From Moniliella sp. 'wahieum' (Eukaryota; Basidiomycota; Moniliellomycetes; Moniliellales; Moniliellaceae), in NCBI GenBank assembly GCA_003971905.1, contig RSEE01000090.1, positions 1 to 64,000 on the forward strand: a stretch of DNA of 64,000 bases, read 5' to 3'. Numbering within the stretch: position 1 is the stretch's first letter; each line of letters opens with the position of its first letter. Positions 2,153 through 64,000 of the stretch are shown piece by piece. The notes beneath the pieces are model-generated. The model was not told where the DNA came from and ran no database searches. It saw nothing but the letters and a program-made list of their open reading frames with translations. A program made the position numbers and the translations under genes.

Positions 2153-4602
2153 ATGAACACCCAGGCCCCCTTCCTGCCGCTCCAGCTGCCCGTCCCCACC
2201 CTCGAGCAGAGCGCCCATGGCTTCCCTGCCGCTCCTGCCAGCGGCCCACCGGCCCCGCCCCCACCTTCTCCGCCCCCCTTCCTCCCTGTCCCCGGCCTCG
2301 CTCCGCCGCCGCCCGGCACCGCCTCCGCCCCGCCTCCCTCCCCTTCCCTCCGCACCCCTTCTTTGCCGCGCCCCACCAGGCCCCTCCGTCCCAGATGCGC
2401 ACCAACCCCGGCCTCCTCCACCCGGCCCCCAGCATGGCCGCTACCGCCACCACCAATGCCTCTCTCGCCTACCTCAACGACCAGCTCGCCCGCTTCGCCG
2501 CCACCGGTGGCATGCCTTTGCTTCCCGCCCATGGTCTCCACCAGTGCCACGCCCTTGCTCCCTCTGCTCCCGCTTCGGGCGCCAGCAGCCCCGGAGGAGC
2601 AGCGCACGAGGCCTCGTCCGCACCGGCTACTCCACCCCGGCCTTGGCCTTGGATCGTTTGACCCCGCCGCTGCTTTTTCCCAACTCGGCGCCGCCGGCTT
2701 GCCTGCCGGCTTGCCTCCCGCTGGTCTGCCTCCTGCTGGCCTTACCGGCGCTGCCGGCCTCCGCACCCTTCCCATGGCCACGGACCCCGCTCCTCCCCCT
2801 TTTACGTCAATGGCAAGCGCTTGGTTTGGTCCGACATGATCTGCGCTACCATTGCCGAGTCCCCGCAGCGCCGGTTGGTGATCCAGGATCTGTTCCATGC
2901 ATGTGCCAAAAATTCCCCGAGATTCACGAATGGCCAATGGCAAGGATTGGGAGGTGAGTTTTCCCTTTTCCTTTCCCTTTTCCTTTTCCTTTCCCTTTTC
3001 CTTTTCCTTTTTGTTTCTTTTTGTTTTTTGTTGTTTTTCTCCCACTTTGGCTTGGAAAAAGGTAGCTAACCGGATCGGACTGAACGCATAGGCCCGCGTT
3101 AAGAATCGGATCAAGTCGACCTTGTCAATCAAGAGCAACTTTTTATCAAGGTGCCTCGGCCTGCCTCGGCCGCTGGCAAAGGATCCTGGTGGACGCTGAG
3201 CGAGGAAGCTCAAGACATGTACCGTTCTGGTCGTCTGTCAACGAGCACAAGCAACAGGGTGTGCTTCAATCGGCTACGCACCACGTAGGACATGCTCACC
3301 ACCACCACGGTGCCCACGCACACCATTCCACTCACTCCTCCCGTTCCTCCAGCTCGGTAGGACAGCGCGCTAAGGACCGCACCCCACATGCCCATCCTGC
3401 CTCGGGCCATCAAGTCGGTGGCACATCCACCCTGTCCCGTCCTACCTCTCGCCCGGCCAGTCGGCCTAGTCGGACTGGTTCCCCCTCCCTCTCTCGTCGC
3501 TCCCCCGTCCCTTGGTCCCATGAGTATGACCGCGCTTCGACCCGAGGAGGCTCCCCCGTACAGGCTCACCAACAATACCCGCCCCCTGCACCACAGCCCA
3601 ATGCCACTGCCAATGGGAATCCTAATGGGAATCCTAATGGGAATCCTAATGGAACGGGAATGGATACCCTCTACCCTTACCGCCCGGGATGTTTTTTGAC
3701 TTGAGCGGGCTCAACCCTCTTGCTCTGGCCCAAGTTCATGCCGATGGTGCCTCGTCTCCGTTCCCCCACCTGCCCCACCTGCCCCACTTACCAGGAAGCG
3801 GGACGATGACGCCATCGCAAGGCTTAAAGGTGGACAGTCTGTCGCTGTCGCTTACCCCTCGTCCGCCTTCGGACCAAGAAGTGGCACAGTGGCGCGCACT
3901 CTTCGATGCTGCCGGACCGTTCCCAGGATCGGTCCCAACTTCCGGATCGGTTTCGGTTGCCGGATCAGTTTCGGCGTCGGGATCGGGATCAGGCTCGGCT
4001 TCTGCATCGGCTACAGCTTCCGCTTCCCCAGTCACTAGCTCACCACAACAACCCGGCGCACAGGCTCCTAAACCGGACGATAGCCCCCTTTCTTCCGGTC
4101 CGTCCGTTGATTCCACCAGCTCGGCCGCATCTCACTCCCAATCCCACATCTAACTCCCAATCCCAATCCAACTCCCAATCCCAATCCAACTCCCAATCCC
4201 AATCCAACTCCCAATCCCAATCCAACTCCCAATTCCAGTCCCTCCCGGTCCCAGTCCCAGTCCCAGTCCCAGTCCCAACCCTCGGTCACGGCCGAGGACA
4301 CAGAGACGGACGCGCTCCTGCGCTCCTTGGTCGGCGGGTCAATGTTTGATTCCAAAGTGCCTTCTGCCTCTGCACCTGCACCTGCATCTGCACCTTCACC
4401 AACCTCTGGACCGGCCTCTGGACCTGCACCGACGTCGGGACCGACGTCAGGACCGGCACCCACGTCCACATCTACCCCTACCTCCTCCCACCCGACCCCG
4501 GCGGACCCACAGCCTTTTTCACTAGACCTCGCGTTCCTTGGCGCAGCGCACGACGGCCAAGCCAAGCCCGTGCCCGTACCTGTGGCTACGACGTCGACCT
4601 AA
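2153..4602 (+). CDS. forkhead (winged-helix) transcription factor, frame-broken
   Basis: Probable DNA-binding transcription factor of the forkhead family, acting in the nucleus. A Pro/Ala-rich N-terminus is followed at about 2802-3235 by a winged-helix core: GKRLVWSDMICATIAESPQR (helix 1), a TNGQWQ segment, then NRIKSTLSIKSNF (recognition helix region) and KVPRPA...GKGSWWTL, the typical forkhead end. The core is split by an intron (GTGAGT at 2954 to AG at 3091) with a long pyrimidine tract. Downstream are His-rich, Ser/Pro-rich, Asn-Pro-Asn-Gly and Ser-Gln repeat segments, ending at the TAA at 4602. The frame changes at about 2802, 3140, 3225, 3685 and 4140; at 2802 and 3140 one extra T restores the forkhead domain. 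The start at 2153 is the first ATG in a good context and is not certain. The subfamily cannot be named from what I see. Confidence 0.8.
3612..3655 (+). repeat. AATGGGAATCCT tandem repeat in forkhead gene
   Basis: A 12-bp unit is repeated about three and a half times and encodes Asn-Gly-Asn-Pro repeats in the low-complexity tail of the forkhead protein. Confidence 0.85.
4140..4245 (+). repeat. 18-bp AACTCCCAATCCCAATCC minisatellite
   Basis: About five near-perfect 18-bp copies, encoding Asn-Ser-Gln-Ser-Gln-Ser in the forkhead protein's C-terminal region. The reading frame breaks at the start of the array, which may be a collapsed or mis-sized repeat. Confidence 0.85.
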
Positions 4603-8449: not shown

Positions 8450-8454
8450 ACATC
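8450..8454. repeat. target site duplication, left copy (ACATC)
   Basis: ACATC directly precedes the 5' LTR and is repeated directly after the 3' LTR at 13501-13505. Confidence 0.92.
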
Positions 8455-8614
8455 TGTTGACATCCGTCCTAGGACCGCGCGGACCCTGAGTCACGTGAGT
8501 CAGCTTTCATTCCTTCCGAGCTCGCACCAGTCTTCTGGACGAGTCAGTCGCAGAAGCTTCTTAGTCAAATACGACGTTCAGTGCTCACATTCTTTGGTAG
8601 TAGCGAGGCCGACA
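8455..8614 (+). repeat. 5' LTR of copia element
   Basis: 160 bp, TG...CA termini. It matches the 3' LTR except for A/C in the TTAGTC(A/C)AATACG segment, T/G in ACATTCT(T/G)TGG and one extra C near the end. It should carry the element promoter. Confidence 0.95.
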
Positions 8615-8667
8615 GAGTTACATCCTTATCTGCTCATCCCTGAGCTGGCCAAACTACACCCACAACC

Positions 8668-9911
8668 ATGGGCGCCAACGCTAACACCGATCTCTCGGTC
8701 AGCGACACCACAATGGTGAACAAGCGCGATTACTGGACACCAACCGGTCGCGATCCGCCACCGATTGGCACCGACAACGAGGAACTCATGATGCTTTGCG
8801 CCGAAGCGCACCTGTGGTTCAAGAAGACGAACGACATCGATGTCGTTAAAGAGAAGATCAACAGAACTATACACGACAGAGCCGAGTGGCTTGGATGGAA
8901 GGACGAACCTACGTCTATCACGACAAACTGGGTTCGACGGGCTACGAATTTTGTGGTGCAAAACATCCACCAAATGGAAACTCAACCCAACGCAACTTTG
9001 GGGGCACCTACAGGCGCAGCCTCGCGACCCGAGTACGACCTTTACAGATCACTACGCGAGTCTCCCACCAAGAATATCAAGTGGCCTGATCTGAACAAAG
9101 ACCCGTCCGCCTACAGCGCTTGGGAAGACGAATTTCTCTTCGCGATAACAGATGCCCACCCCCACGCAAGCGACGTCGTCCAGAATGGTCGCAGCTCCCG
9201 CTACTTCACCGAGGACCTCGACAGACGCTTGCACAACCTTCTTAGGGAAGCCATGCCGTCAACCCTCTTCCGGACGATCCGCACCCACACGAAATATGCA
9301 CCCAGGACACGCTGAACATGCTGCGTCAGCGGTATGGATATACGCCTACCGCAAACAGAGGGCCTCTACTCATTCGCTACTTTTCGGCCGACCAAGGAAA
9401 CCGATCGGGTCGAGACTACCTCGACTACATGGAAGAGATCAGTGCAAGCCTGACGCGAGCGGGCATCCCACTTACGGAAGAGCAGGAACGCACTGGGATC
9501 CTACTCGGCTTACGCGACATGAGCATTCGCCAGCGTGAAGAGCGCTCGAGTCTAGACAAGTTACGGCAGGCCGTGATGACATACCAGCCGCCACGTATCC
9601 CGGTGGAGAAAGGAAGAGAAACGGAGGCAAGCCGGTCAACGGAGGAACGCCTTGGACTCGACCCGACAGCGGGGGACGACCCACCAGCGGGGGAAAAAAA
9701 CTCCAGCGGGGGCAAAGCCGGCGACGACAACCTCGCGGACACAAAGACCAAGGGGCAAGACCGCACCAACCAACCCTGGCGCAGCGCGACGTCTAATAAA
9801 CCTGTTGTCCCTCCGCGCAACCCAGGCCGAGCCAACGCTCACGTCGCTCAGAGAGCGAGCTCTCCCGAGTCTGAAGTGATTGACGTTGATGCGGGCACAG
9901 CTGACTACTAG
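8668..9911 (+). CDS. gag: copia gag (capsid) region
   Basis: Structural polyprotein of the retrotransposon, beginning at ATG 8668 after the 5' LTR and ending at TAG 9911. It has a helical capsid-like region and a basic, Pro- and Gln-rich C-terminus; I see no CCHC zinc knuckle. The frame shifts once near 9302: family-like sequence continues from ...THTKYAP into DTLNMLRQRYGY if one C is added to a CCC run. The following pro-pol frame is in phase with the second part of gag and is separated only by the TAG at 9909-9911. Confidence 0.85.
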
Positions 9912-12900
9912 GAACTCGGGGGCGAAATGCGAATCATCCGGGCATTATATGACAGTGGGGCATTCCCATCCATTTGGAAAGACAAATCCGTCTTCACATC
10001 CATGACCCCTTGCGACGACGAGATAGAGGTTGCTAACGGGACACATGTAAAGGCGGAAGGACGAGGCACGGCCACAATCCGTATCCGATGCTTAGGAGGA
10101 CACCAAATGGAGATAAAACTCCCCAACAGCCTATACATGCCCCGTTTCAGCCGAAATCTCGTCAGTGTAGCACACCTGTCGAACACCGGAATCGCATCAT
10201 ACTTCGCCCCACACCAGAAGGGTATCTGGCTTGGTAACCCAGGATCCACCCTACGAAAAGTAACCGGCAGTGACTATCAATTCACGATCTTACACAACCC
10301 GCGAACGCCACCCACCCCTGCGGGCCATGGCGACCAAACCGATCAAACCGGCCGACCCCCCCAACCCCAAACTCCCTCGCAGCATCCCTGGCCCTGGACC
10401 ACGTCTCTAAAGCCCCAAACGCTGGAACCACGCATCGACCTCCTCCCCTGGCTTACACGATCGGAAACCGCAGGCCTCCGCGTCACAGCCAAGCATATCT
10501 CCCTCTGTCGTTCAGAGTGGGATTGCCCAACATGCGCGGTGGCACTAGCGACAGCATCGCCCCATCCGAGCCGGGACCGCCTCCGATCCAAAAGACCTTT
10601 CGAGGTCCTCCACGTCGACGTAGTAGACCTCCCCCGGGTAACCGGCATGGGGCACGGATACGCCCTCGTCGCCGTTGATGACTTCACGCGGTACGTCTTC
10701 ACCACAGCGATCCCGACAAAGGGCGCTGCAACAAGAAGGAACTGCGGACCTCATATTGCGGGAGCAACGCTACGGCCCGGACAGACTGCTGCGGACTTTG
10801 CGCACGGACAACGCCCCCGAATTGACAAGCGCACTGCAACCTTTTCGGACGAGCAAGGCATCAATCATCAGAACGGACAATCCCGGGGCAGAGTGCAGCA
10901 ACGGTGTGGCTGAGCGTGCCATCCGAACCATAACGACTCGTGCAAGGCAGTTGCTCTTGGGTACAGGTCTTCCGACGTCGGACTGGTGGGAACACAGCCT
11001 CCACGCTGCGTGCTTCACCCAAAACCAAATGCCACTCAAAACATCCGGGGAAGACAACAAATCGCGATTTGAGCGATACAAAGGCCACGCATACTCGTTA
11101 CCGATGCAACCCTTTGGCCGCGTTGCATACCTCCATCTGCCCGAGTCACGCCGCGAGCACAAGCTCAGCGCGCGGGCAGAGGAAGGTATGCTGGTAGGAT
11201 ACCACCATCAGCGCGGATCAAAGGGATGGCTCTTCGCCACATACCAACCATCCCTGGGTACCTTCACCTACCGCTGGTCGAAACCGTACAAATGGGGCAA
11301 CGCCATCTACCCCCATCTCCACCCCGACCACTTCCCACCCGACATCTCCAAATCACCTCAAATTAAAATCGACAGTGAAAAAGACGCTAACCCTACTCCG
11401 CCAGCCGCGGCAGCACCCATGCCCCGAACCGCCGCCACACCCCAGACACCCGCTCCCACCACCACCCCCCCTCCGCGCCGCTACCCCCTCCGCCAGCGCA
11501 CCACCCGCACCTCCCTCGACCTGCACACACTCCCAATCGCTGACGACCCCACCGACACGACCTACCATGCTCGTGCTGCAGCCGCCACGCCCCACTGCGC
11601 CGCACCAGAGATCGGCATCGCCCGCCCCCTACCTGACACATCCGCCCCCCCGTTTGCCGACACAGTTCAACCTCCCGAATACGCCGCCATGACTGCTCTC
11701 AGCGCACCCATCCACCCGGACACGGTTCAGCTCACCAAGGATGGCGTACCCCTCGCTCCCAAGACGCTCAAGGGTCTCGAGACTCACCCCTCCTTTGCCA
11801 TGGTCAAGCAGGCTATGGCCGACGAGGTGGCCACACTCGCGCGATACGGCACCTACGAGGCTACGTACCCACCACCGGGTGCACAAATCCTCATAGGACT
11901 ATGGCGCATCACCACAAAGACGGACGCCGAGGGCCGGTTCCTGCGCCACCGCGCGCGCTTTGTCGCGGGCGGACACCAACAATCGGCCGAGACTTGGGGC
12001 CAGACGTTCGCACCATCGGTGCGCACACCTGCCATCCTGACCCTCGTCGTGCTGGCCGAGAAGTATAAGTTTGGCCTCTTCTCGGCGGACGTCAATGCAG
12101 CGTACCTGAACGCCCCCCTCGAAGAAGCAGTCTACATCCGCCCACCCCCCTACTTCCCCGAAGCGGGTGGTCGCGTGTGGCGTCTCAAGAAGAGTCTATA
12201 CGGGCTACATCAGAGCGGAGCAAACTGGGCACGATACATCCGGAACCTGCTGCGTGACAAGCTCGGCTTCACGCAAAGCTTGACCGAGCCCTGCTTGTTC
12301 GTGCGCGCTGCACCACCGGGTGAGCAGATCCTCCTGGCGGTCCACACCGACGATCTGCTCCTCGCATGCAAGTCACACCAAAAGTACGAGGAGTTTATGG
12401 CCGAGATAAACACACACATTGATGTTCGTGGTAACGGTCCCCTTCACTACCACCTGGGATGCCAATACGATCGGATCGGTGGGGAGCTGTACCTGAGCCA
12501 ACCAAAGTTCATCGAGGAAGTGGTGGCAAAGCACCACATCAAAGCCCCGTGGATCCGGACTCTCCCACATCCCGTACGGATGATACCGCCCCGTGCCGAC
12601 CCTGAACCCCCATCCCTCCCAGCCTTGCGCAAGGCATATCAGGGGAAGATCGGATCGGGACTGTGGGCTGCACGAATGGGCCGGCCTGACTCCCTCTTCG
12701 CTATCACGGCCCTCAGCAGAGCCGCTGCCGACCCATCGCAGCAGCATCATCAAGCAGTCGATGACTTCCTTCGCTACCTGTACCATACTCGAGGAAAGGG
12801 CCTGAGGTTGACCCCAACATCAGATGCACCGGCCATTGCGCTGTATACAGATTCCGACTTGGCGGGAGATCCCATCCAGGCACGCTCCACATCTGGATGC

Positions 12901-13347
12901 CTACTGATGGTGTACGGTGTGCCGGTGTCGTGGCGATCCATTCTTCAGCCGAAGAGCGTTACCAGTACCGCCGCCGCCGAATATACGGCAGGATATGATG
13001 GACTGGTTGACGCCAACTATGTCAAGAACATCATGATCGAGCTTGGGGCCATCGGCGAGGGTACACCCATTCATTGGTATTGCGACAATAAGTCTGTCGT
13101 CGATCTCGCCCACAAATTTGGCAGCACCGGCAAGCTCCGAGAGCTGAAGATCCGGTACCACAATGTACGGCAACACGTGGACTCGGGCGAGGCCATACTT
13201 GTACACATCCCCGGCGAAAGGAACCCAGCGGACGTCCTCACCAAGCCTCTCGGCCGTCCCGCCCTGACAAGCCATCTTGCTCAACTCCGCGTCGAGGAGA
13301 TGGATCCAGTCCACATGACTGGGCCCTCCGGTCAGCGGGGGTGTTGA
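9912..13347 (+). CDS. pol: copia pol: protease, integrase, reverse transcriptase, RNase H
   Basis: Enzymatic polyprotein needed for copying and inserting the element. Protease: active-site-like ALYDSGA at about 9945. Integrase: a CPTC zinc-binding half at about 10528, then catalytic D in HVDVVD (about 10611), D in TLRTDNAPE and E in GVAERAI. Reverse transcriptase: DVNAAYLNAPLEEAVYIRPP at about 12089, SLYGLHQSG and the catalytic VHTDDLLLA at about 12340. RNase H: ALYTDSDLAGD at about 12840, AAAEYTAG and the C-terminal ADVLTKPL. The frame changes once at about 10735, inside the integrase. The stop TGA at 13345-13347 lies in the 3' LTR. No own start codon is needed if gag is read through. Confidence 0.93.
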
Positions 13348-13500
13348 CATCCGTCCTAGGACCGCGCGGACCCTGAGTCACGTGAGTCAGCTTTCATTCC
13401 TTCCGAGCTCGCACCAGTCTTCTGGACGAGTCAGTCGCAGAAGCTTCTTAGTCCAATACGACGTTCAGTGCTCACATTCTGTGGTAGTAGCGAGGCGACA
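13342..13500 (+). repeat. 3' LTR of copia element
   Basis: 159 bp copy of the LTR, ending GCGAGGCGACA and followed by the right target duplication ACATC at 13501-13505. Confidence 0.95.
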
Positions 13501-13505
13501 ACATC

Positions 13506-15641: not shown

Positions 15642-17739
15642 ATGTCTCGTCCCGATCTTGGTGCCAGGGAACGCGTCGAACGGGATGTTAAATTCCCTCT
15701 CGCACTTCCTCTCCCGCCCAACCCAGGCCCCGTTCCTGCATCGGGTCCAAGCCCCTACCCTGAACCGAGCAGCAACGATGAATTTCAGGGCTTTACCGAC
15801 TCCTTTGGTAGGACCCTGCCGCGGCGGAGTTGGGAGCGATCTTCCCTAGTCCCCCCTGGCCCGACCCATCCGTACCCGGTTACCAACCGTGCGTACTTCC
15901 CTAGTGGGTCATACCAAATTCGATCCGCTGCAGAAGCACCAGAAGCCATGCCTGCGCCAGCCATACCACCCATGGTGCATCCCGACGAGCACAACATGAA
16001 GCCACGCGTTTTGGGACGCCCTACACCTTTCCCTTTGCCCCCAATGGCGAACCTTCCACATTCAACCACCCACATTAACTCTTGGCCAGCAGAGACACAA
16101 AGCTACGCACTCCCTGCAGACCCACCAACTTCCCGCCCGCTCATGTCCTCCCTTCCTACACTCGAACTTCATCCGGCACACCCTGTACCAAGTGTGCCGG
16201 CCCATCCAGCCGCCATGTTGAGTGTGCAGGATGAGCGGGCGCTGGCTCCGTTCCTAAAGGCAAGATCCAAGCGCCGGCGCCACACAGACCCGGCGAAACT
16301 GCCCTTGCACCACTTGAGTTATACTCCTCCCCCTCCTTCGCTCTCACCGGCCAACGCTGCGCTCGTCGTACCGGACTCGTCCACCAGTCGACGCAACACC
16401 ACAACCCGCAGCCGCAGCCGCCCTGCCCCTATCATGGTTGATGGAAAAAAGAGGTATCCATGTGGTGTGTGTAGCGAGACGTTCAGCACAAGTGGACATG
16501 CCGCTCGTCACAGCCGCATCCACCGTGGTACGTGTGGGAACCAGGGCCTGAGTCTATTTTTGCTTTGCTTTTTGCTTGTTTCTGACCGTGCCTGTATCTG
16601 TACAGATGCGCGACCGTACCTGTGCACCTTTCCTAAATGTGGTGCCCGTTTTTCGCGTCAAGACAATAGTCTGCAGCACTACAAGACGCATGTTGCACCC
16701 CGCAGCGCGGGACAAGGATCTCGGGTTCCTCTTCAAGTCGGCGGCCGAGATTGCGAGAGAGGATGAGCTGGTGGCAGTGGGGAAAAAGGCCTTGTTGGAT
16801 GGCACGGCGATTGCGGTGATGCAAGAGGTGTTTGCCCCCGATGGCACGCGGACGGGTGAGAGGTTGGTCCGTTCGGTCGGAGCCGACTTGGCAACGCGTC
16901 TGCCCCGCCCTAGGCATGAGCCGCGTCGCAGTTCCTCCGCATATTTCCTTGCACAGCCTGCTTCTGCCTTTGCCTCTGCCTCCATTTCTGCCTCGGCCCC
17001 TCCTGCTGCCTCGGCGTCTGCCTCGGCTTCTACGGCTGCCTCTACCTCTGCCTCTGTCTCTGCCTCTGCTTCTGCCTCTGCCTCTGCCTCTGCCTCTGCG
17101 CCGGCGTCGGCGTCGGCCTCCCCCTCTTCCATCTCTGCACCATCGTACCCTGTTGCCTCCCACCACCGGCATATGTTCGACCTCAATACCACGCAAGGCC
17201 CGGCCGAGCAGCGGGTACACTCAGGTGGGCCCGTGTACTCTCTCTCGGCAGACGTCGCCGGACACGGACACCACATTGGAGCTGGCAACAAACCCACCCG
17301 ATTGGTTACCGGTCTCGTTTCTGCTCCTTTCCAGTCCTCTTCCTCTTCTTCCGGGGGAAAATACCTGCCTGAGGGCTGGGATGGCAGTGCGACGAAGTAC
17401 GATTCGTACGCCGTGTCTGGCACTGGCGCTTGGCGCCCCTCGCCTTCCTCTCCGCCTCAAGTATCTTCTTCTGTTCAGCCTCCTGCGCGGGCCCAGCAGT
17501 GGCACAACTATTACTCCCCCGCCATGGCTCCTCCGAGCACACAGGGCACTTTTAGCCAAGCGCCATCGTCCTCTGTCCCTTACCTTCCTGCCAGTCAGGC
17601 TAATCAGGCCAATCAAGCAACTCAAGTCAACCAGGTCAACCAGGCGAATCAGGCCAATCAGGCGAATCAGGCCAATCAGGGGCATGGCGCCGGAACGATT
17701 ATGGATACTGAGCATGATTCGGCCCTGAACATTGGTTAG
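15642..17739 (+). CDS. NRG1-like C2H2 zinc-finger transcription factor
   Basis: Probable nuclear DNA-binding regulator. Two adjacent C2H2 fingers lie at about 16455-16685: YPCGVCSETFSTSGHAARH with SRIH (C-x2-C-x12-H-x3-H), then YLCTFPKCGARFSRQDN with LQHYKTH (C-x4-C-x12-H-x3-H). The words TSGHxARHxRIH and RFSRxDNxLQHYxTH are characteristic of the Nrg1/Nrg2 repressor family; repression of glucose-controlled or filamentation genes would be by analogy only. A 78-bp intron (16528-16605, GTACGT...CAG) separates the fingers. Upstream is a Pro-rich region with a basic KARSKRRRH patch. Downstream come Ser-Ala tracts and a Gln-Ala-Asn repeat tail to TAG 17739. The frame shifts once soon after finger 2 (about 16708). 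The start at 15642 is the first in-frame ATG of the finger frame. Confidence 0.85.
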
Positions 17740-20985: not shown

Positions 20986-21021
20986 AAGGCACAGCCCGGG
21001 GGAAATAGTGAGGAAAAGAAG

Positions 21022-21093
21022 AGACTCGAATGGGATTCGAACCCATGTCATCGCCTATTGGCCAGGGATGCGTTACCACTACGCTATCGAGCC
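21022..21093 (-). tRNA. tRNA-like gene with unusual anticodon arm (formal anticodon CCA)
   Basis: On the minus strand GGCTCGA pairs with TCGAGTC as a 7-bp acceptor stem. The D arm is GCGT-AGTGGTA-ACGC and the T arm is ATGGG-TTCGAAT-CCCAT, all canonical, and a T-rich terminator follows. The 17-nt anticodon arm reads TCCCT-GGCCAAT-AGGCG: the stem has a C-C mismatch and the loop has G where the near-universal U33 should be, giving formal anticodon CCA (Trp). It is either a decayed tRNA-Trp or a gene with a local sequence error. Confidence 0.6.
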
Positions 21094-23140: not shown

Positions 23141-26100
23141 ATGGAGTCTGCCATGCCCATCTCGCCTCTCGAGGCGCGGTGGCTCATGCGCTCCTTCGCC
23201 CTCCCCCTCGCCAGCCCTGCCGCGGCCAACCCACCCTGCCCGCCGCCCTCGCCGCCGCGCCCCGCCTTCGTCCCACTGGACTGAACGCACCCTCCTCGCC
23301 GTCCTGTCCAACGTCGTCCCCGCCTCCTCGTCCTCCTCTACGCCCTGGTCCTACGCCCCCGTCCAGCACGTTGTCCTGCCTGCCTGGCATCGCCTTTCTC
23401 CGCCGCTCTTTCCAGCCCTTTGTTTCCGTCGACGACATTGCCATTTCCCTCGACGCCGAGAAACGCAGTCGGGGCCAGTCCGACTCGGACGACGAAGGCA
23501 CCGACCTAGTAGACGCCCCCGCTACCGAACACACCCGCTTCTCCTGCCTCCGCTAGTGCTGCGTCCCCGCGCTGGCCTGCACCTAGCGTCACCATTGGCC
23601 TCAGCGTCGTCAGTCTCATCCACCTGGGTGTACTCTTGGCCCGCTTTGCTATGTGGCCGCAGGCCAGATGTGGGATGCGGGCGAGGAGCCATGGTCGCAA
23701 GTCGTTACCGACCTTGTTCTCGACTCGGCCGGATGGGCCTATGTGCTGGTGCGCACCCTCTTTTGCCCCCAGCCCACGCCGTCGTACGATACGCTAGCAT
23801 TGCTCTTGGTCCTCCTGGCCAGCTCGGTGGTACGCCTGCACTTGGTTTCCTTACGTGGTACGATGGGTCGGGGCTGTATGCCTCACCGGCCTGGTACGCC
23901 TCTGCGGCAACGGGCAGCATCGTGTTGTCTCTATGCTCTCTACCTCGTTTTTCCCCCGCTCTCGGTGCTTACACCACAGTTGCAAGCCGTGCTGGGATAC
24001 CGCAGCGCCCAACTCGCCCTTACCGCGCCGGCCAACCCGAACATGGACGCTTCGAAAATCACCCGCCCGAAGCATTTGCTCGTTGTGGCAGTGGTGCACG
24101 TTCCGCTGGATCGACTCGCTGCTCCAGGCGTCCAAGAAGGGCAAGATTGCCGAGGAGGATGTGTGGCGCTTGGGCGCCGACTTGAAAGCGCGCGTGTGGA
24201 TCGCAAGTGGGGTCAGCTGCAGGGCATGGGGATTGTAAGCGGATCTGGACGATGAACTCGCGCGATCTGTTGCTCGACTTGTTTGACTGTACGTTGTGCT
24301 TTCGTTTGTTTGCTTTTGTCTTTTTCTTCTGTCGGGATGCATGGAAGAGGGAAGGAAACGACTCTATTACTTCCCCCCTCTCCCTAGGTGGTAAGCACTG
24401 TGCTTTCGTATTCCAAGCCACTTGTGCTCAAACGCGTACTGGAGGGCATCGAATCCGGCAAGCGCAACTCGGATACCAACTTGGGCGTTCACGAGGTATG
24501 GATGGCGCTCGTCAAAGGTGGTTCGTACACCAGTCACGAAACGGCGTATGCGATTGCTGCGCTGGGGCTGTTGCTCGTTGCATGTGGGGCCGAGGCCGAC
24601 TTGCTGCACCTGTATGCCGGTCGTCGTGTGCGGTGCGCACGCGCGGCGAGCTGATCAGCGCCATGTTCTCCAAGGGCATGCGCTGCAAGGACATTTCGGG
24701 CGCTGTGGAGGACGCATCCAAAGATAAGGAAAAGGAGAACAAGGACAAGGATGCCACGTCGGAGACGTCATCGGACACCGACTCGACCCAGGCCGCCTCG
24801 TCGGAAGGGAAGAATGCCGAGGCCAAGGAAGACGACAAGAAGGCGTCCAAGGAGGCTGTGGAGATGAAAAAGGCAGAGCAGAACCAGAATGGTCAAGGGG
24901 TCGGGCGGGCGGTAAGCCTCATGTCGGTGGATGCGAATGGGGTGGGAATGTTCCTGTCGATGCTGTACCTGTTGTATGGCGCGCCGCTCGACTTGACCAT
25001 CTGTCTCATCATGCTCTACACGCAGTTGGGCTGGTCGGCGTTTGTAGGCTTTGCCATTGTGCCCATTGTGATTCCGATCCAGTCGGTGGTGATGGGCCAG
25101 ATGATCAAACTGTACAAGCGCACGAGCAACGTACGCGACTCGCGGATGGCGGCACTGTCCGAGCTGGTCAACAACTTGCGCTTGATCAAGCTGATCAACT
25201 GGGAGGGCAAGTTTAGTGAGCGCGTGATCAAGCTGCGCAACCAAGAACTTCGTTTGCAATTCTTGCGCTACATTGTCGGCTCCATCACAGGTCTCATTTG
25301 GGCCCTCGCACCTGCCTCCATCTCGGTGATTGGCTTTGCCTCCTACACACTCTGGTTCAAGCAACCGTTGACTGTCCCCGTCGCGTTCACCGCGCTCAAC
25401 CTGTACCAGCAACTTAACAAGCCCTTGGGCGTACTGCCCATGATGATCAACCATTCAGTCAGCATGTTTGTCTCGGCGCGTCGGATTGAACGCTTCCTCG
25501 AGTACCCCGAGGTGCCCGAAGGGGTCAGTACACTTCACCGACCAGTTACCTTGGCCAGCATGCCGTTGCGCGACAATGTCATCGCATCCAACGCGACCTT
25601 CCGCTGGCACAACACCCAGCCCCTCGACGATCCTACCCCCAAGGCCAAAGCGTCGCGCTTTGCTTCGGTCCGTAAGGTGGTTGCCAAAGCGGCCTTTTGG
25701 CGCAAATCCGCCCCGGCTCAAGAGACGGTGGCTCCGGACGCGGCCAGCAGCTCGGCTGTCAGCTCTTCCGACCTGGCTCAGACCCAGTTCACCTTGCACA
25801 ACATTACGCTTACCGTGGATGAAGGTTTGACTTTGGTGTGTGGACCGACGGGCGCGGGCAAGAGCAGTTTGCTGTCGGGTCTGTTAGGCGAGATGGATGT
25901 GGTGTCAGGCAAGTTGGTATTGGACAAGCAACCTGGCATTGTCGATCCCGTCACCGGTTTGCATGGTGGCATCTCATTTTGTGCGCAACAACCCTGGCTG
26001 CAACAAAAGAGCGTGCGGGACAACATTTTGTTCGGGGAGAAGATGGACATGGACCGGTACAAGGCCGTGTTGGAGGCGTGTGCGTTGATGCCGGACATTG

Positions 26101-28869
26101 AACTGTTTGACGATGGCGATCTGCAAGAGATTGGTGAGGGTGGCATCTCCCTCTCGGGCGGACAAAAGGCTCGGGTGGCCTTGGCACGCGCCGTGTACTC
26201 CAAAGCACGCACCGTTTTGCTCGACGATGTCTTGTCGGCCGTCGATGCGCATACGGCACAAAAGCTCGTCACCGAGTGCCTGACCGGCCCGCTGATGCGC
26301 AACCGTAGTATCTTACTCGTCACGCACCACATTGATCTCGTCCTGCCCCATGTCAAGCGGGTGATCAAGTTGGAGCGCGGTACCGTGGCTGCCATGGGCT
26401 CGGCCAGCGAGCTGGTCGCCTCGGGCGCGATCGAGGTGCATTCCAACCACGATGCCAAAGGAAAGGGAAATCGTCCGGGTCACCGCAAGGCAAGGAGAAG
26501 GATCAGGAATTGGAATCGGAGAAGGACCAGGACCAGGAACAGACCATGGGAAGGACAAAGCTCCCCAAGGCGACAAGCCGAGCAAGATCGGGCCCCTGGA
26601 TGGAAGTAAGGCGACCCACAATATTGTGGAGAAGGAGAAGGTGCGGGTGGGACGAGTCAAGAGCCACGTGTACGGCATCTACCTCCGTGCGCTGGGGTGG
26701 TGGATGATTGCCCTGGTTGGACTGGCCCTGGTTGTCACCAATGCGACGGACCGTCTTCGTCGGTTTGGCTCTCTTACTGGGCTTCCGGCGGCAGCGACTG
26801 TGGTCAGACAGGCGACTTGGCCGGCCCGATTGTCCCCCTGACAACGTCCGGGATGGTGTACCACTCGCGCTGGACCCCCCTGCTCGTCAAGGTGCTGTTG
26901 CGTTTCCACCTTCAGGTGCGGGCGATGGCGTTGGGGTGGCGGAGAAACGGTGTTGGTTGCCGCCGGCCCAGACGGCCCCCTACCCTACATGCTCATTTTT
27001 GCCCTGATTGAATTCTTTTCGTGCATCGCCTCGGTCATGGCCAACGTGCTGATGTGCATTGCGTCGCTCCGAGCTTCGCGTGCACTGTTTGTGCGGATGC
27101 TCAACTCGGTCAGCCACTCGACCACACGCTGGTTGGACAAGACCCCTTCAGGTCAGATCCTCAATCGGTTCGGAAAGGACATTGAGTCGCTCGACTCGGG
27201 TTTGCTCCAATCGGCCTCTACTGTGCTGTTCCAAGTCTTTTCCCTCATCACTGCGTTTGCCACGCTTTCGGTCTTGGTCCCGGCCTTTATGATCCCAGCA
27301 CTGGGAGTCATGTGGCTCTACTACTCACGTACGTACCATCCGCTTTGGTTTTGGTTTGCGACTGTCGACTGCCTCGGTGCCGGAACCGGAACCAGTGTCA
27401 CTGACCTTGTCTCTCTGTCTCTCTGTTTGTCTGTCCAGTCGCCAAGGTGTACGTTGCTTGCTCGCGCGACCTCCGTCGGCTCGAGTCGGCCCACCGTTCT
27501 CCATCTTTAGTGGGTATTCCGAAGCGCTCAAGGGCATTGCGACCATCCGTGCCTTCTCGGCCGAGACGCGGTTGCTGCATGAGGTGTACCACAAGGTCGA
27601 CTCGTTCTCCTCGGCGCACTTCTTTTGGTGGATGACCAACCGCTGGCTCATGTTCCGTGTAGACTTTGTCGGAGGCCTATGCGTGTTTGCTACGCAAATC
27701 CTTGCCTTGTCCGGAGCCATGTCAGCTGGCATGGCGGCAGTTGCTATCACGCAAGCTGCTAACTTCACCTTGTCGTGCTACTGGCTGTCGCGCGGCTGGG
27801 CCAACTTGGAACAGGAGTTGACGTCCATTGAGCGCGTGGTGGATTACCTCCCGCCGAAACTGCCTCAAGAACCACCGCAGGTAATTGAGGGCCACGAACC
27901 CCGGCTGCCTGGCCAAGCAGCAAGGCGACGATCCGGTTTGACGACGTGTGGTTGCGGTACGACCCGTCCTTCGACCCGGTCCTCAAGGGCGTCTCCTTTG
28001 AAATTCGACCAGGGGAGAAGGTAGGTATCGTAGGTCGCACAGGCAGTGGCAAATCGACCTGTGCTAGCAGTTTGCTCCGCTTTGTGGATCCGGACAAGGG
28101 CACCATCTCAATTGAAGGTATTGATATTCGCACGATCGGACTACGTGACCTCCGTTCTCGCATCTCATTTATCCCTCAAGACCCCGTCCTCTTCCAAGGT
28201 ACCGTCCGCGATAACCTCGATCCCTTTGATGAACATACCGATGAAGAGTGCCGCACCGTCTTGGCCCAGGTCCGACTCAGTCGCTCCCCCCTGCCAGCCA
28301 AGCTGTCTCCCGCGCGCCTACGCGCCCACCGTCCCCATCGGCAGATGGCCCGTCTGACGCAACAGCAGCAGCCGATGCGGGTGCTGCTGCGCCCACGTCG
28401 CCAGCCACGTCAGCGGTGGCAAACGTGGGTGAAGTAACGGAACTGACGCTCGAATCGGCGGTGGCCGATTCAGGGGCAACTTATCGCAAGGTCAACGGCA
28501 GTTACTCGCTATGGCCCGTGCGCTCTTATCCCACAACCAATCGTGATTGCGGACGAAGCCACTGCGAGCGTGGACTTTGGTTCGGACCGGGCCATCCAGC
28601 AGGTGATCCGTGACCGGTTCAAAGAGAACATTATGCTGGTCATTGCGCATCGCTTAACTACCATTGCGGAGTTTTCCCGTGTCATGGTCCTGGATGCTGG
28701 CAAGGTCGTCGAATTCGATACGCCCGCTCGGTTGTTGGCTAATCCGGACGGTCACTTTTATCGCATGGCTGAGCACTCGGGCGTGTTTGATACCCTGGTC
28801 CGGATGGCCCAGGCGAGCGCCATCTCGAATGAAAATGAAAATGAAAATGCCACTGCGAGCAGCAGTTGA
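23141..28869 (+). CDS. ABCC/MRP-type full ABC transporter (Ybt1/Yor1-like)
   Basis: ATP-driven exporter of the ABCC family, expected in the vacuolar or plasma membrane. An N-terminal membrane segment region (about 23560-24010) is followed by the linker motif WIDSLLQASKKGKIAEEDVW, TMD1 and a Lys/Glu/Asp-rich insert (about 24715-24890). NBD1 has GPTGAGKSS, LSGGQKAR and VLLDDVLSAVD (25842-26240). TMD2 spans about 26630-27830. NBD2 has GRTGSGKST (28033), a frame-broken LSQGQRQ signature (28483), ADEATASVD and AHRLTT. Introns with GTACGT donors lie at 24289-24387 and 27329-27438. The start at 23141 is the first ATG of the N-terminal frame. Frame breaks at 27501, 28473 and 28537 are each mended by one extra base in a short C or G run. 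The family call is secure; the substrate and the exact subfamily are not. Confidence 0.93.
24289..24387 (+). other. intron 1 of ABC transporter
   Basis: GTACGT donor and CCCTAG acceptor; 99 bp. Removing it joins the N-terminal part to STVLSYSKPLVLKRVLEG, the first helix of TMD1. Confidence 0.8.
27329..27438 (+). other. intron 2 of ABC transporter
   Basis: GTACGT donor and TGTCCAG acceptor; 110 bp. Splicing joins MWLYYS to LAKVYVACSRDLRRLES, the usual MRP sequence after a TMD2 helix. Confidence 0.88.
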
Positions 28870-29391: not shown

Positions 29392-29463
29392 GGGCGGATA
29401 GCTCAGGGGTAGAGCGCTTGCTTAGCATGCATGAGGTCCGGGGTTCAATTCCCTGTTCGTCCA
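29392..29463 (+). tRNA. tRNA-Ala (AGC)
   Basis: 72-nt cloverleaf: acceptor GGGCGGA/TTCGTCC with G-T wobbles, a D arm with the A box TAGCTCAGGGG, anticodon loop TTAGCAT (AGC), and T arm CCGGG-TTCAATT-CCCTG with the B box. A T-run terminator follows directly. No intron. Confidence 0.96.
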
Positions 29464-44542: not shown

Positions 44543-47237
44543 ATGCTGGGCCGCCTGCTGCGCTTCAGCGCCACCTTCGTCCACCGCGCCTTCCGCCGCT
44601 TCGAGGCGTTTGCCGACTGGCTCACCGGCGCCGCCGGCCCGTCTTCATCGTGCTCTGCTGGGCCCTGGTCGCCATGGGCGCCTGGTCCTACTGTGCGTCT
44701 TGCCTTGCCCTCCTCCGTGACCAGCGCCGCGACCCTGCTGACCCGTTGATTCCCAGTCACGACCATGTTCGCCGTCTTGACTCCCTTCCCGGCGTCCTAT
44801 GCCCCGCTCTGGGACGCCCACGCATCCATCCTCGCCCTCCCGCGGCTCACCTGCCACGCTCTCGTCGCTGAACCACTGCTGCTGGCGCGCTTTTGGGCAA
44901 CCCTGGCGGCGTGTATGTTTATCGGCTACAGCGTCTTTTTCCACTACTACATGGCCACCACCGAGCCTCCCGGGGGCGTGATGACAGGCCTCGCTCCTTC
45001 CCTCCACGAACACCGCATCGGACCAGGCAGCACGCACTGGTGGCTCACCATGCGCAAACGTGTTGCTCGCGCTTCGCCCGTCTCGCTCCGCGCCCATTCC
45101 GACTTGGTCGTCGTGCCTTCCAAGCCGATCAAGTTACTCAAAGCCAGCGAATCCAGCGAGCGGCTCGCACGCGCACGCGCACGACAAGAACACAGTGCCA
45201 AGGCCAGTGTCAATGTCAATGCCAATGCCAAGCCACGAACCACCCCTCTCGTCTCTCCCTTGGCCCTGCCGGCGGAGGGAATGCGAGGACGGCCGGATCG
45301 GGATCCCACACCGCTCCGGACCCGGCTTGGTTGGCCCGCCACGCACGTGCCGGCGCCGGTACCGGTACCAGTAGCGGAAAGTAGCAGCCCGGCGCCTCCT
45401 TCCTCTTCCCTGGTGCGTCGCACTATAACCCCGTGGCCGCACGCGCTCGCCTCCCCCCCGTTCCCCCGAACCTCGCCGCGCCCACACGCCCGATGCTGCG
45501 CTGGAACAGGACCTGTATGCTCCCCACACCTGCGCGACATCCGCGACATCCGCCGCACCCACTGCACCCACCCCAGGTCGCCCAGACGATCTCATTGGTC
45601 TCAGCAGCCGTGCAGGCCACCGCACCGGCGCCAGCCTTGGTTCCTTACCGCTCGCAACGCCGACGTTTTGATTGCCCCCACGCCGCGCGCTGGTGCTATC
45701 CACCACATGCCCACAATGCCGATGACCCAAGGCTTCCAGTTCCCCCCCGGTGGTTCGATGGGACCGATGGGACCGATGGGTCAGAACGCATCGTCTTCCT
45801 ATCCCTTGCCGGGGGGAGTGGCGCTGGCTTCGCCTCGAGCTCACGCAGCTCGCTCGACATGCCGAGCGCGGCGTTGGTGGCTGGCACAAGTGGCGCACGG
45901 GGCGCAGTAGGTGCCGACCCAGTGCTGGAAGACATTGATTCGGACGATCTGTTCCCCGTGACAAAGATGTGCCACAAGTGTCCCAAGGTACCGCTGTTCA
46001 AAGCGTTGGCCGCGTTGCCGCCTGAGATTCGCTCGATGGAACGGGCAATGCGGAGCAAACATGCGTGGCCACCACGATCGGCTGGCTTGGCCCACCACAG
46101 CAGCGCTAGTGATGAAGATACGTCTCTCCGCTGGCGCCCCTGACGACACAGGCGTAGCATTAGCACAGGACGAAACGGAGGACGATATTCGTGCTTGGTT
46201 GGAGAGGAGGAGGCTTGGTACTTGTACCCCCTCCCAAACCGGAACGTACGCACACTGCTCAGTGTGCAAGACGTGCATCTTGAAATACGTACGTGCCCCC
46301 CCCCCGCCCCTGCTTGTCCCTTTGGCTGCGCTTGCTTCGCCTGCATCCGCTTCGTCCCCCCTTTCAAGGGAGAATGCAGCACGAGATGGAACTGACCGTT
46401 TTCGTTTTCGTTTTCGTTTTCGTTGGGCGTAGGACCACCACTGTCCCTGGCTGAACCAATGTGTTGGCCTGGGCAACGAGCGGTACTTTGTCTTGTTCAT
46501 GGCGTGGCTAGGCGTAGCCTGTATCATCATGTGCCACGGGCTTCCCCGTGGCACGACAAGCTTTTACTGCGCCTCACACTTGGACGCACACTTACACGCC
46601 CCGCGTGTGCGTACTGCTCACGTGGACCTTAGCCTTGGTCATTGGCTTGGGCGTCGCCGTCATGGCTGCATGGCAAATCTTGCTCGTCGCGCGGGGGAAA
46701 CCTCCGTCGAGTCACACGATAACAACCACTACGATATGCTCGCACGCCGCCGCGGTCAACGCTTCGTCAACGTCTACGATCTCGGCGCGGTACAGAATTT
46801 GCGCCTGTTCTTCCATGTCGGCCTTGCCGACTCGGCTGGACAGGGTCGTCAGGCGGAATGCCCAGTGCATGTGCACCCAGTGGCTCGAGTGGACTGGAGA
46901 GGTCAACGAGAGCTTCGAGGGGGGACCGAGGCTTTGCTACTGCGCCTGGTCTGGGTCTGGGTCTGGGCTAAGCTCCCTCTCCCGCAGCACCTTCGTTCTT
47001 CTCTTCTTCTGCCTCTGCCTCTGCCTCTGCCTCTTCCACTTCCACTTCCACTTCCGCGTTGGCCTCGGCGTGCCGGCCCCACCGAGACGCAAGGGGATGG
47101 GCATCGATCTTGCTCCCTATCCGCGTTGCTCCCTATTCCGACGGATGGCACTGGGCCAAACGCCGCGGACTGGGCGGTCGTCATGGCGGGATCGAGGCCG
47201 TGGAGAATTGACGGACGAAGAGGAAGATTACTCGTGA
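44543..47237 (+). CDS. DHHC-type protein S-palmitoyltransferase
   Basis: Membrane enzyme that attaches palmitate to cysteines of proteins. From ATG 44543, helix 1 (PVFIVLCWALVAMGAWSY), an intron (44693-44756), MFAVLTPFPASYAPLW and helix 2 (ACMFIGYSVFFHYY) are followed by a long Ser/Pro-rich loop. The Cys-rich domain starts with MCHKCPKVPLFKALAALPPE and resumes about 90 codons later as HCSVCKTCILKY, then after an intron (46289-46432) DHHCPWLNQCVGLGNERYF. A later helix is VCVLLTWTLALVIGLGVAVM, and then SVESHDNNHYDMLARRRGQR and NVYDLG follow, the usual ending motif of this class. It ends with an acidic LTDEEEDYS at TGA 47237; one base is missing at 47205. Internal frames change several times. 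The exact PFA/ZDHHC subfamily is not assigned. Confidence 0.93.
46398..46427 (+). repeat. (GTTTTC)n in DHHC intron
   Basis: Four to five hexamer copies just before the acceptor GGCGTAG; they may serve as the polypyrimidine tract. Confidence 0.85.
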
Positions 47238-51050: not shown

Positions 51051-53286
51051 ATGGCCCGCTCTGCCACCGTCCCCGTCGGCGGCCCTGCCCGCCCCGGCGA
51101 GACCCGCGTCCACCGCGCCTTCCTCAGCCCCGACCACCTCGTCGAGCGCCCCGCCGACGCATCAACACCATGGCCGACCTCCTGCCCGCCGCCGCCAAAA
51201 GTGCGTCTCCTCTCGTCTCTCCTCCCCGCTTGCCTCGGACTCCTGACCCCCCCCCCCCCCCCCCCCCGCAGAGTTTGGCTCCAAGCATGCCGCCGGGTGG
51301 CGCGACGTGATCAAGTGCACAACGAAGCCAAGGAGGTCACCAAGACTGTCGGCGGCAAGGAGATCAAGGAGACCAAGAACTGGCAGTTCTACGAACTGTC
51401 CCACTACCACGTATGTTCTCCTCCCCTCCCCTTTCTTGTTTCTTTTCTTCTGACCCCGCCCCCCCCCCCCCCGCAGTACATCTCCTACACGGAAATGCTG
51501 GAGCAGGTCAAGATCATCTCCAACGGTCTCTTGGCCCTCGGCCTCAACAAGGACACCCACTTCAACATCTACTCCCAGACCTGGTATGTGTTGCTCGCTA
51601 TCTCACCGCTCTGATTTTCGAGTGGGTGGACTGACTTGCTGCTTGCTTTCCAACCTCCCACAGCCTCAACTGGCAGCTTGTCGCCCACGCCTGCTTCCGC
51701 CAGAGCATCGTCTTTTGCACGGCGTACGACCGCTGGGCGAAGATGGTCTGACCTTTTCCCTCGACGAACCCGAAGTGGTCGGCATGTTTACCAATGCCAA
51801 TCTGCTGTCCATGTTGGCCAAGGTGGTGGCCAACACGCCCCACCTCAAGTATGTCATTTACGATGGCAAGGACGAGGCCGGCAAGGCTGCCGCGCTCGAT
51901 GCCGTGCTGACCGAACGCGGCGGCAAAACCTTGACGCTCGACGAGCTCATTGAGCTGGGTAAGACGGTGGACCAGGAACCCACCTTGCCCTCACCCGATT
52001 CGTTGGCCTGCATCATGTACACCTCGGGCAGCACGGGCCAGCCCAAGGGTGTGTTGCTGTTGCACAGGAATGTCGTGTCATCGGTGGGTACGGTGACCTT
52101 GCTCCTCGGCCCGTACTTTGCTGCGGACGATACCTTGTTGGCCTACCTGCCCCTGGCGCACATTCTTGAATTTGTGGCGGAATGTTCGTTGATCCACCTG
52201 GGCTTGACGTTGGGCTATGGCCGGGTCAAGACGTTGACCAATGCCAGCGTGCGCAACTGCAAGGGCGATCTGCAAGAGTTCCGACCGACCTTGTTGGTGG
52301 GCGTGCCGACGGTGTTTGAGACGATCCGCAAGGGCATTTTGGCCAAGGTGAACCAAGGTGGTGCGCTGAAAAAGACAGTGTTCAACACGGCGCTCGCACT
52401 CAAATCGAGCGGTTTGCCCCTGGTTAAGAATGTGGCCGATTTGGTGTTTGGCCAAGTGCGGGCGCAGACGGGCGGCCGACTGCGCTTGTCCTTGTCGGGC
52501 GGCGCACCCATTTCGCATGCCACCCAATCCTTTATCGATACCACCCTGGTCCAGATCCTGCAGGGGTACGGTATGACCGAGTCGTCGGCCATGTGCGCCA
52601 TTTGCACCCCGGAGTTCAACTCCTTGTCGAGCGTCGGCGTCATCTCGCCTGCGATCGAAGTCAAGTTGGTGGATGTGCCTGAGGCTGGGTACAAGGCGAC
52701 CAACAACCCACCGCAGGGCGAGGTGTGGATCCGTGGTCCGGCCGTGTGTGCCGGGTACTATAAGCAGCCCGAGTTGACCAAGGAAACGATCAACGACGAG
52801 GGCTGGCTCATGACGGGCGACGTGGGCCAATTCAACAAGGACGGCACACTGTCGTTGATTGACCGTAAGAAGAATTTGGTCAAGTTGGCGGGCGGGGAGT
52901 ACATTGGTCTAGAAGCGTTGGAGAGCACGTACAAGAGCAACGTTTTGGTCGGTAACATTTGTGTTGTTGCCAACTCGGACGCTAACAAGGCAATGGGCGT
53001 CGTCTTCCCCAACGAAGCCAACTTGCGCGCCCGCATTGAAGCGGGTGACGTGCCTGGCGTCCAACCGGACTGGGACTTGCACAAGTTGTGCGACTCGAAA
53101 CCGGTTGCTCAATACGTCTTGGCTTCCCTCACTGCCACGGGTAAGGCCGCTCGCTTTGCCCCGCTCCAGTTGCTCCAAACTGTCTTGCTTGTCCCGGACG
53201 AACTGGACATGACTGCCGCTCAGAAAATCGAACGTAAGAAGGTCGAGGCCAAGTATAAGAAGGACATTGATCGCATTTACCCGTAA
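51051..53286 (+). CDS. long-chain fatty-acid-CoA ligase (Faa1/Faa4-like)
   Basis: Activates long-chain fatty acids to acyl-CoA with ATP, at lipid droplets, ER or plasma membrane. Start at ATG 51051; exons at 51051-51200, 51272-51410, 51477-51583 and 51664-53286, with donors GTGCGT, GTATGT and GTATGT. Motifs: RDVIKVHNEAKEV, YISYTEMLEQVKIISNGLLA, LNWQLVAHACFRQS, the AMP-binding YTSGSTGQPKGV (about 52018), YLPLAHILEFVAE, LSGGAPIS, LQGYGMTESSA, DEGWLMTGDVGQFN, DRKKNLVKLAGGEYIGLEAL and the C-terminal KIERKKVEAKYKKDIDRIYP. Length and order fit the family. Two frame breaks (51159, 51734) are each mended by one added base. From 51750 to 53286 the frame is intact. Confidence 0.96.
51201..51271 (+). 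other. intron 1 of acyl-CoA synthetase gene, poly-C acceptor
   Basis: GTGCGT donor. A CTGAC branch-like motif is followed directly by about 23 C and GCAG. Confidence 0.88.
51411..51476 (+). other. intron 2 of acyl-CoA synthetase gene, poly-C acceptor
   Basis: GTATGT donor. CTGAC, then CCCCG and a C run of 14-15, then GCAG; the same layout as intron 1. Confidence 0.88.
51584..51663 (+). other. intron 3 of acyl-CoA synthetase gene
   Basis: GTATGT donor and CTCCCACAG acceptor; splicing joins YSQTC to LNWQLVAHACF. Confidence 0.85.
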
Positions 53287-57627: not shown

Positions 57628-57712
57628 GAACGGGAACGGGAATGGGAACGGGAACGGGAATGGGAACGGGAACGAGAATGGGAACGGGAACGGGAACGGG
57701 AACGGGAACGGT
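57628..57712 (+). repeat. (GGGAAC/GGGAAT)n hexamer array
   Basis: About fourteen hexamer copies with a few variants. Confidence 0.9.
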
Positions 57713-58025
57713 GCTCAGGTTGAGCGTCAGCGTCGCCCAAGCCAAGATGGAATCCCCCCCATAATAACCCCAACCCGGCTGCCGGACAGAACCAAGCCGT
57801 GGGCCGGGCGGTCTGTGCTTGGATCTCGGATCGTCTATCTAGCCATCACGATTCAATATTCAGTTGCCACATCCATGACGTGGATGACGTCCACGATGAT
57901 CGATGAGGCTCAGCAGGGTGATGCTGATGCATGATGCAGGTGATGTGCGCGCCTTGCCTCGCTCGCCCTGTGCCGATCACAACAAACATCAACATTCCCA
58001 CTGCGAATGCAATTTAACTTGTCCG

Positions 58026-58142
58026 TCCTCCATCCCCCATCCTCCATCCCCCATCCTCCATCCTCCATCCTCCATCCCCCATCTTCCATCCTCCATCCTC
58101 CATCCTCCATCCCCCATCCCCCTATCCCTCCATCCCCCATCC
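58026..58142 (+). repeat. (CATCCTC/CATCCCC)n heptamer array
   Basis: About fifteen heptamer copies ending right at the ATG of the BRCT gene; probably 5' leader or promoter. Confidence 0.9.
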
Positions 58143-58143
58143 C

Positions 58144-59720: not shown

Positions 59721-60185
59721 GGTTGGCCACCCCTGTTCGCCGTGGCTTGGTGGGAGGGGATCGAGCAGGGGAGGGGCGATGGTGGGATGGGATCATGGGG
59801 GTGATACGGAATGGGATGGGAGGGGAGGGGAGGAGAGAGGGGAGCGGAGGGAGCGGAGGGGAGCGGAGGGGAGCGGAGGGGAGCGGAGGGGAGCGGAGCG
59901 GATGGATGGAATGGAATGGGATGATGTAATGGGATAGGATGGATGGATGGATGGATGGATGACGATGATACGAAGGGTGCGTAGATATGGATTGCTGATT
60001 GGGGGACTGGATCGGCCGACACACAATACTTCTGCCCTCCAACCACCAGTGTGGCTACACTCGACAGGCCAGTCCTGGCTGGCTTTGCTTGCTGCGCTCC
60101 TCGTCTGCCCCCCCTGCCGCTGCCTCCGCCGGCGATGCCCCCGCGTGCGACGCTGTGAACGACGACCACCACCACCGCCGCCAGC
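59721..60185. other. purine-rich spacer before ATG26
   Basis: No gene seen. GGAGCGGAGG repeats at 59840-59912 and GGATGGATGGAT at about 59936-59962. Confidence 0.65.
59840..59912 (+). repeat. (GGGAGCGGAG)n array
   Basis: About seven copies of a 9-10-bp purine-rich unit. Confidence 0.9.
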
Positions 60186-63100: not shown

Positions 63101-64000
63101 CCTTGATGCAGTTGCCCCTGGCTGACGTGATCAGCGTTACCCGCCACCACGCCTTGCAGCCCAACACCCACGGCCTCATCGTCGTCGTCCGCGGTCACGA
63201 AGAGATCTTCCTCGAGTTTGCCACCGTCGGCGCGCGCGAAGCCGCCGTACAGACCATCCAACCGTTGTTGGAGGCCGTGCAGGACGAGCAACTGGCCGCG
63301 GTGCAAGCCCAAACCCAAGCTCAAGCTCAAACCCAAGCGCGGAAAGGAGGACGCGGTGATACGGATGCCTCTTCCACCACGACGGGGGAGACGTTGCAAC
63401 TGGATGCTTTGACTGCCGAATTCGCCGCTGCCACCCAACCGGAATACGAATCGTCGTCGCTCGCCAACTCTCGCGTGTCCCTCGCTGCTTCCGAGGCAGA
63501 CCCTTCGGCGCGATCGGGATCGGGATCGGGCTCAGGATCCGGATCCCGCTCCAACTCCCGCTCCCACTCCCGTTCGGGATCGGGATCGGGATCGGGACTC
63601 GACTCGGCTGCCAGCAGCGGTATGCTCAGTGGCATCTCCTTTCACTCCTCGGCCATGCTCCAGTTTCAACCTCCGGTGCCGCTGCACTTTACCCTGCTCA
63701 CCATTGGCTCGCGCGGCGACGTGCAGCCGTACATTTCGCTGGCCAAGGCGTTGCAGCAGGACGGACACCAGGTCCGGATCGCTACCCATGCCGAGTTTGG
63801 ACCCTGGATCGAAAGCTTGGACATTGGCTTTTATGCCGTCGGTGGCGACCCGGCCGAACTGATGCGCGTCTGCGTCGATAACGGGACTTTTTCCCTTGGC
63901 TTTTTGCGCGAAGGCGTCACCAAGTTCCGCGGATGGCTCGACGACCTCCTCGTCTCGGCTTGGCAAGCTTGCCAAGGTACCGACGTGATCATCGAGGCTC
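60186..64000 (+). CDS. ATG26: sterol 3-beta-glucosyltransferase Atg26 (partial, runs off the window)
   Basis: Transfers glucose from UDP-glucose to ergosterol at membranes; in some fungi it is needed for autophagy of peroxisomes. From ATG 60186 a Pro-rich leader precedes an intron (60868-60978, GTATGT...CTTAG) and FTDLVSRLSSSQLSDL. Next is GRAM 1 (KVRRVFNLPASEQL, CWMYRATLFLKGYAYLTSSY and LCFYAPLP). A PH domain follows (HRWTRHWVVLHD, AWFESAQDPYFPQNHLDLRL, a repeat insert, YRCPGRTLLVLCPSPVSRDAWVDA and PLETILDVEANTLLP), then ALDEFYFLHF. After a Ser-rich linker comes GRAM 2 (AFPFARKESIQLTVRCYLYR, GRLWITNRHLCFQSS). After a Ser-Gly tract, the GT28-like N-lobe begins: LLTIGSRGDVQPYISLAKAL at about 63695. 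The catalytic C-lobe lies beyond the window. Frame breaks occur throughout 60400-62150; from about 62150 the frame is open to the end. Confidence 0.94.
60868..60978 (+). other. intron of ATG26
   Basis: GTATGT donor, TCCTTAG acceptor, 111 bp; joins NATPATR to FTDLVSRL. Confidence 0.8.
61735..61800 (+). repeat. (CCAGAG/CCAGGG)n hexamer array in ATG26 PH domain
   Basis: About ten hexamer copies, encoding Gln-Ser or Pro-Glu repeats depending on frame, lie in a loop of the PH domain. Confidence 0.9.

Follow-up and report, generated by a model that had tools for sequence, protein, structure and literature searches.

Genome-wide programmed ribosomal frameshifting is known in Euplotes ciliates. In long-read draft assemblies, indels are reported to make up most of the errors, to be mostly false deletions and to fragment genes (PMC12007338). 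The window analyzed here, a stretch of 64,000 nt (positions 1-64000 of contig C90) from an assembly whose 223 contigs total 69,493,810 bases (~69.5 Mb), likewise contains conserved genes that do not read through in one frame. By comparing the window with a second copy on another contig, and gene families across the assembly, we find that the breaks are very probably consensus deletion errors of the assembly.

The window and its second copy

A second copy of the window, collinear with it, lies on contig C64. Five aligned blocks (summed by hand) cover 57,451 of the 64,000 window bases and comprise 52,854 matches, 2,338 mismatches and 1,167 gap events, with one-base gaps numbering 306 in the window vs. 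314 in C64. The parts of the window outside these blocks are one retroelement and three shorter stretches. C90 and C64 most likely represent two haplotypes of one genome region. Gaps of 1-2 bases are denser outside the acyl-CoA synthetase and ABC transporter genes (781 in 50.3 kb) than inside them (21 in 4.9 kb), suggesting that many of the non-coding gaps between C90 and C64 are probably true differences. The features to which we refer below are as follows.

2780..3160, forkhead sites (family name from the original prediction): one base short at 3140; at 2802 each copy is short by one base, at different places
8455..13500, plus strand, Ty1/copia-type LTR retroelement containing the gag site: present in C90, absent from C64
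16690..16730, NRG1-like site (name from the original prediction): one base short vs. C64; the ORF at 15642-16766 has a C2H2 zinc finger
24388..27333, plus strand, ABC transporter, first half: window frame changes at ~24627, 26753, 26929 and 26970; about ten breaks in C64, with 26929 common to both
27946..28437, plus strand, ABC transporter second nucleotide-binding domain piece (PF00005): the sites around it at 27501, 28473 and 28537 are each one base short vs. C64
35271..35583, minus strand, eS25-like gene (name from the original prediction): two bases short vs. C64
37300..37350, TMEM223-like site (name from the original prediction): one base short vs. C64
41460..42140, MAG1-like sites (name from the original prediction): a single base is missing from the window at three of the four; at the fourth, 41477, the window has no loss and C64 lacks two
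47180..47230, DHHC site (name from the original prediction): one base short vs. C64
51056..53283, plus strand, long-chain acyl-CoA synthetase: window breaks at ~51160, 51317 and 51732; C64 breaks at two others; three intron-like skips

The LTR element has 155-base terminal repeats that are 99% alike and an open pol frame (10675-13347). The aligned C64 flanks overlap by five bases at the element, which, together with its absence from C64, suggests a five-base target duplication and a young insertion in one copy only. The window also contains a tRNA-Trp gene (21021-21093, minus strand) and a tRNA-Ala gene (29392-29463, plus strand).

We compared 16 sites with C64, namely 14 listed in the original prediction plus eS25 and the NRG1-like gene, scoring length differences within 12 alignment columns. 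A C64 counterpart aligned for 15 of them; the missing one is the gag site, inside the retroelement that C64 lacks. At 12 of the 15, exactly one base is missing from the window and C64 shows no loss (binomial p ~6e-11), a shortfall found at 8.6% of window positions at random and at 153 of 4,885 positions (3.1%) in the coding parts of the two genes. The central claim of the prediction, that missing single bases break the frames, is largely upheld by this result. The three remaining sites are eS25, with two bases missing, forkhead 2802, with one loss per copy, and MAG1 41477, with a loss of two in C64 only.

The missing base had also been placed in a short run of identical bases, which the alignments do not bear out. 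In the fuller copy, it lies inside a run of at least two at only 5 of the 12 confirmed sites, about the background, as 46% of all bases lie in runs (run status was read by eye from the alignments). At the other seven, including DHHC, which is ambiguous and was scored as outside a run, the lost base is a single base, and at five of these seven it is flanked on both sides by identical bases. Losing such a base creates a doublet or lengthens a run of the kind seen at the listed sites, so the doublet or run visible there is often the scar of a deletion, not its cause.

Two genes had been thought to need the opposite change. The NRG1-like gene does not, being one base short vs. C64 like most sites. 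For eS25 the frame does shift in the direction claimed, but the event is not opposite in kind: losing two bases gives the same frame change as gaining one. A Pfam scan of 20 ORFs, mostly at the listed sites, assigned a family to three; the forkhead, TMEM223, MAG1 and DHHC pieces gave no family, so those four names rest on the original prediction.

Breaks and selection in the acyl-CoA synthetase and ABC transporter genes

We mapped the breaks in these two genes by aligning proteins of relatives to both the C90 and C64 copies. In the acyl-CoA synthetase, the window copy breaks near residues 37, 66 and 156, and the C64 copy near 68 and 621. C64 is clean at residues 37 and 156, and the window frame is open over 51733-53283, where C64 breaks at residue 621. 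The breaks near residues 66 and 68 are two distinct one-base gaps, one per copy, seven bases apart. Among the best 120 of 4,441 matches to the acyl-CoA synthetase ORF at 51586-53286, the best named relative is Tilletiaria anomala, at 63% amino acid identity; Tilletia, Violaceomyces and Thecaphora come next among those named, which places the source fungus in the Ustilaginomycotina.

In both genes, each copy reads through the breaks of the other, and the gap events assign the breaks to one copy. The sole exception is the ABC transporter break at ~26929, which is common to C90 and C64 relative to two relatives (region 26915-26990). No classical slippery heptamer was seen in the letters around this site. 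We consider it very unlikely that the shared break is real, with this single gene using a frame change or an unusual junction and the other breaks being errors. An extra one-base gap in the ABC transporter at ~26467 lies in a variable linker (near 26470-26540) to which the relatives assign no frame. One frame change in C64 is ambiguous, as its "2 extra" bases might just as well combine a true in-frame insertion with the loss of one base.

We set the coding stretches of the two genes by hand from the protein alignments, leaving out introns and 26468-26539. Where the window frame is continuous, 56 of the 71 substitutions between C90 and C64 fall at third codon positions (p ~5e-15), with counts at positions 1/2/3 of 5/2/17 in the acyl-CoA synthetase and 6/2/39 in the ABC transporter. 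From this excess, we conclude that both genes are under purifying selection. The coding gaps comprise 21 of 1-2 bases, one that is a multiple of three and one other, which is the reverse of the expectation for real coding polymorphism.

Frame changes across the genome

In a profile search of the genome, matches to four Pfam families, PF00118 and PF00012 among them, change frame on many contigs. The statement that nearly every conserved gene is broken held in part: frame changes occur in the families examined here, but a few chaperonin and HSP70 matches cover almost the full length of the model without a change of frame.

Between consecutive matches, 48 junctions are short by 1-2 bases vs. 6 that are long by 1-2 bases, counts that take the smaller change literally, as a junction lacking two bases and one with an extra base shift the frame alike. 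The remainder of the 85 close junctions are in register or off by more than 1-2 bases. The bias is 33 vs. 2 for chaperonins and weaker, 15 vs. 4, for HSP70 (p 0.02 alone). We used 103 of 105 chaperonin matches, omitting two that lie inside other matches, and all but six of the 86 HSP70 matches (80), and skipped junctions whose neighbors are more than 600 bases apart or overlap by more than 40 model positions. Of the rest, 50 chaperonin and 35 HSP70 junctions are no more than 20 bases out of register; 12 and 1, respectively, are further out.

Alignment of chaperonin copies with each other allowed losses to be assigned to single copies. The set consists of five groups of three to five copies, drawn from 19 of the 30 fetched loci and amounting to 38,481 bases (summed by hand). 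It contains 47 deletions of 1-2 bases that occur in a single copy (41 of one base, 6 of two) and 5 such insertions (3 of one base, 2 of two). Longer events comprise 2 deletions of three bases and 2 insertions, of four and five bases. The 52 events of 1-2 bases correspond to ~1.35 per kb of copy, a rate that leans low because only gaps with clean flanks were counted. The three groups with four or five copies contained no clean gap common to several of them. In the two three-copy groups a shared loss would score as an insertion (four such events), and a loss in all copies is invisible.

Pairs of closely similar loci differ in how gaps and substitutions are balanced. The loci on C28 and C11 are 99.1% identical over 3,579 columns, with 28 gap bases in 20 openings and ~4 substitutions, and those on C1 and C55 are 98.6% identical, with ~27 gap bases vs. 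~26 substitutions. Phosphoglucose isomerase has two loci, with frame changes in both, at different model positions. The eS25 protein is nearly invariant, and of its 11 long matches in the genome we fetched 8; in four of these a private gap, two bases long twice and one base long twice, changes the frame. Two of the four gaps fall no more than three columns apart, the window copy having lost two bases and the C22 copy one, which hints at a possible sequence-dependent weak spot.

Several housekeeping families are more numerous than two haplotypes alone would explain, with eS25 in 11 places and pyruvate kinase on ten contigs. The chaperonin groups hold three to five copies at ~80-99% identity, and phosphoglucose isomerase only two loci. 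We had considered about four haplotypes and dropped this idea once phosphoglucose isomerase showed two loci.

Origin of the breaks

The sequence context of lost bases was examined in 281 isolated one-base gaps between C90 and C64, a set that mixes errors with true indels. Runs of at least two contain 170 of the 281 vs. 45.9% expected, and 111 lie outside any run. Over-representation is limited to runs of three or more: doublets are at background (75/281 vs. 28.8%), and runs of at least four are enriched ~2.9-fold (54/281 vs. 6.7%). In the chaperonin set, 22 of the 41 lost bases are in runs and 19 are not, with doublets again at background. The pattern is a mild homopolymer bias atop near-random deletion.

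Single bases between identical flanks go missing at roughly twice the rate of other single bases (56/111, p 0.0005; 10/19 of the chaperonin losses outside runs, p 0.06). An association of lost bases with haplotype SNPs was too weak to claim, as 13 of 54 private-gap columns are polymorphic in other copies vs. 14.8% of gap-free columns.

A purely homopolymer process, such as flow-based or run-length error, would be a special case of an assembly artefact, and its odds overlap those of the explanation we prefer. The enrichment of long runs speaks for it, but the doublets at background and the many losses outside runs, in the chaperonins as well as between C90 and C64, make it unlikely that such a process acted alone. 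The homopolymer and doublet signature described in the original prediction is thus borne out for runs of at least four and not for doublets. For the same reasons, the pattern agrees better with near-random deletion in a long-read consensus than with a flow-based or purely homopolymer process.

Two further explanations accept the DNA as it stands. Under genome-wide programmed ribosomal frameshifting, ribosomes would shift at each site in a correct sequence; selection on the coding sequence around the breaks and the shared ABC break agree with this, but a site in use should be conserved between gene copies, and apart from that one break the sites are private, the allelic or paralogous copy reading straight through. 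The lack of shared clean gaps in the three chaperonin groups where they would be visible weighs in the same direction. Under true pseudogenisation, many genes would carry real frameshift mutations in one or both copies, and the C64 ABC gene with its roughly ten breaks could resemble a decayed allele. Against this stand the third-position substitutions, the near absence of coding gaps in multiples of three and the great excess of deletions; decay would moreover have to strike chaperonins, HSP70, eS25 and both loci of phosphoglucose isomerase. Private breaks and the third-position pattern together contradict both explanations, and we regard genuine decay as extremely unlikely and programmed frameshifting, which had already been judged the less likely cause, as scarcely credible.

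Consensus deletion error is the explanation that we retain. The breaks are private to single copies in the ABC, acyl-CoA synthetase, chaperonin and eS25 genes with one exception, deletions exceed insertions in both chaperonin events and family junctions, two genes are under selection, and the breaks are spread over many contigs. Both the assembly error and the one-sided loss that had been proposed agree with these observations, less strongly for HSP70. Weighing against an artefact are the shared ABC break, the closely placed eS25 gaps, the weaker HSP70 bias, the near equality of substitutions and gap bases between C1 and C55, the scoring of shared losses in the three-copy chaperonin groups and the denser 1-2 base gaps outside the two genes.

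We propose that the assembly of this genome region rests on error-prone long reads and received scarcely any polishing, or none, a platform and a history that we infer from the pattern of errors. The consensus would lose one base, occasionally two, at almost random positions that mildly favor longer homopolymers, and would do so independently in C90 and C64. At the rate estimated from the chaperonins, most genes of a few kilobases would be struck. On the evidence of these comparisons, the broken genes do not appear to be a real feature of the genome. Until it is polished, the assembly is unreliable for gene models, protein counts and claims of pseudogenes or frameshifting. Comparing breaks between allelic or paralogous copies offers a test for such errors that needs no reads.

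As in Euplotes-type frameshifting, many genes here appear to need a change of frame. Unlike in that system, the breaks here are confined to single copies, and the allelic counterpart reads through. The closer likeness is to the long-read draft assemblies, in which false deletions are reported to dominate as well and conserved genes to look frameshifted (PMC12007338). The deletions described there mostly follow runs of four to five bases, whereas the association with runs is weaker here, and our errors are deduced from allelic and paralogous copies in place of reads or a reference set.
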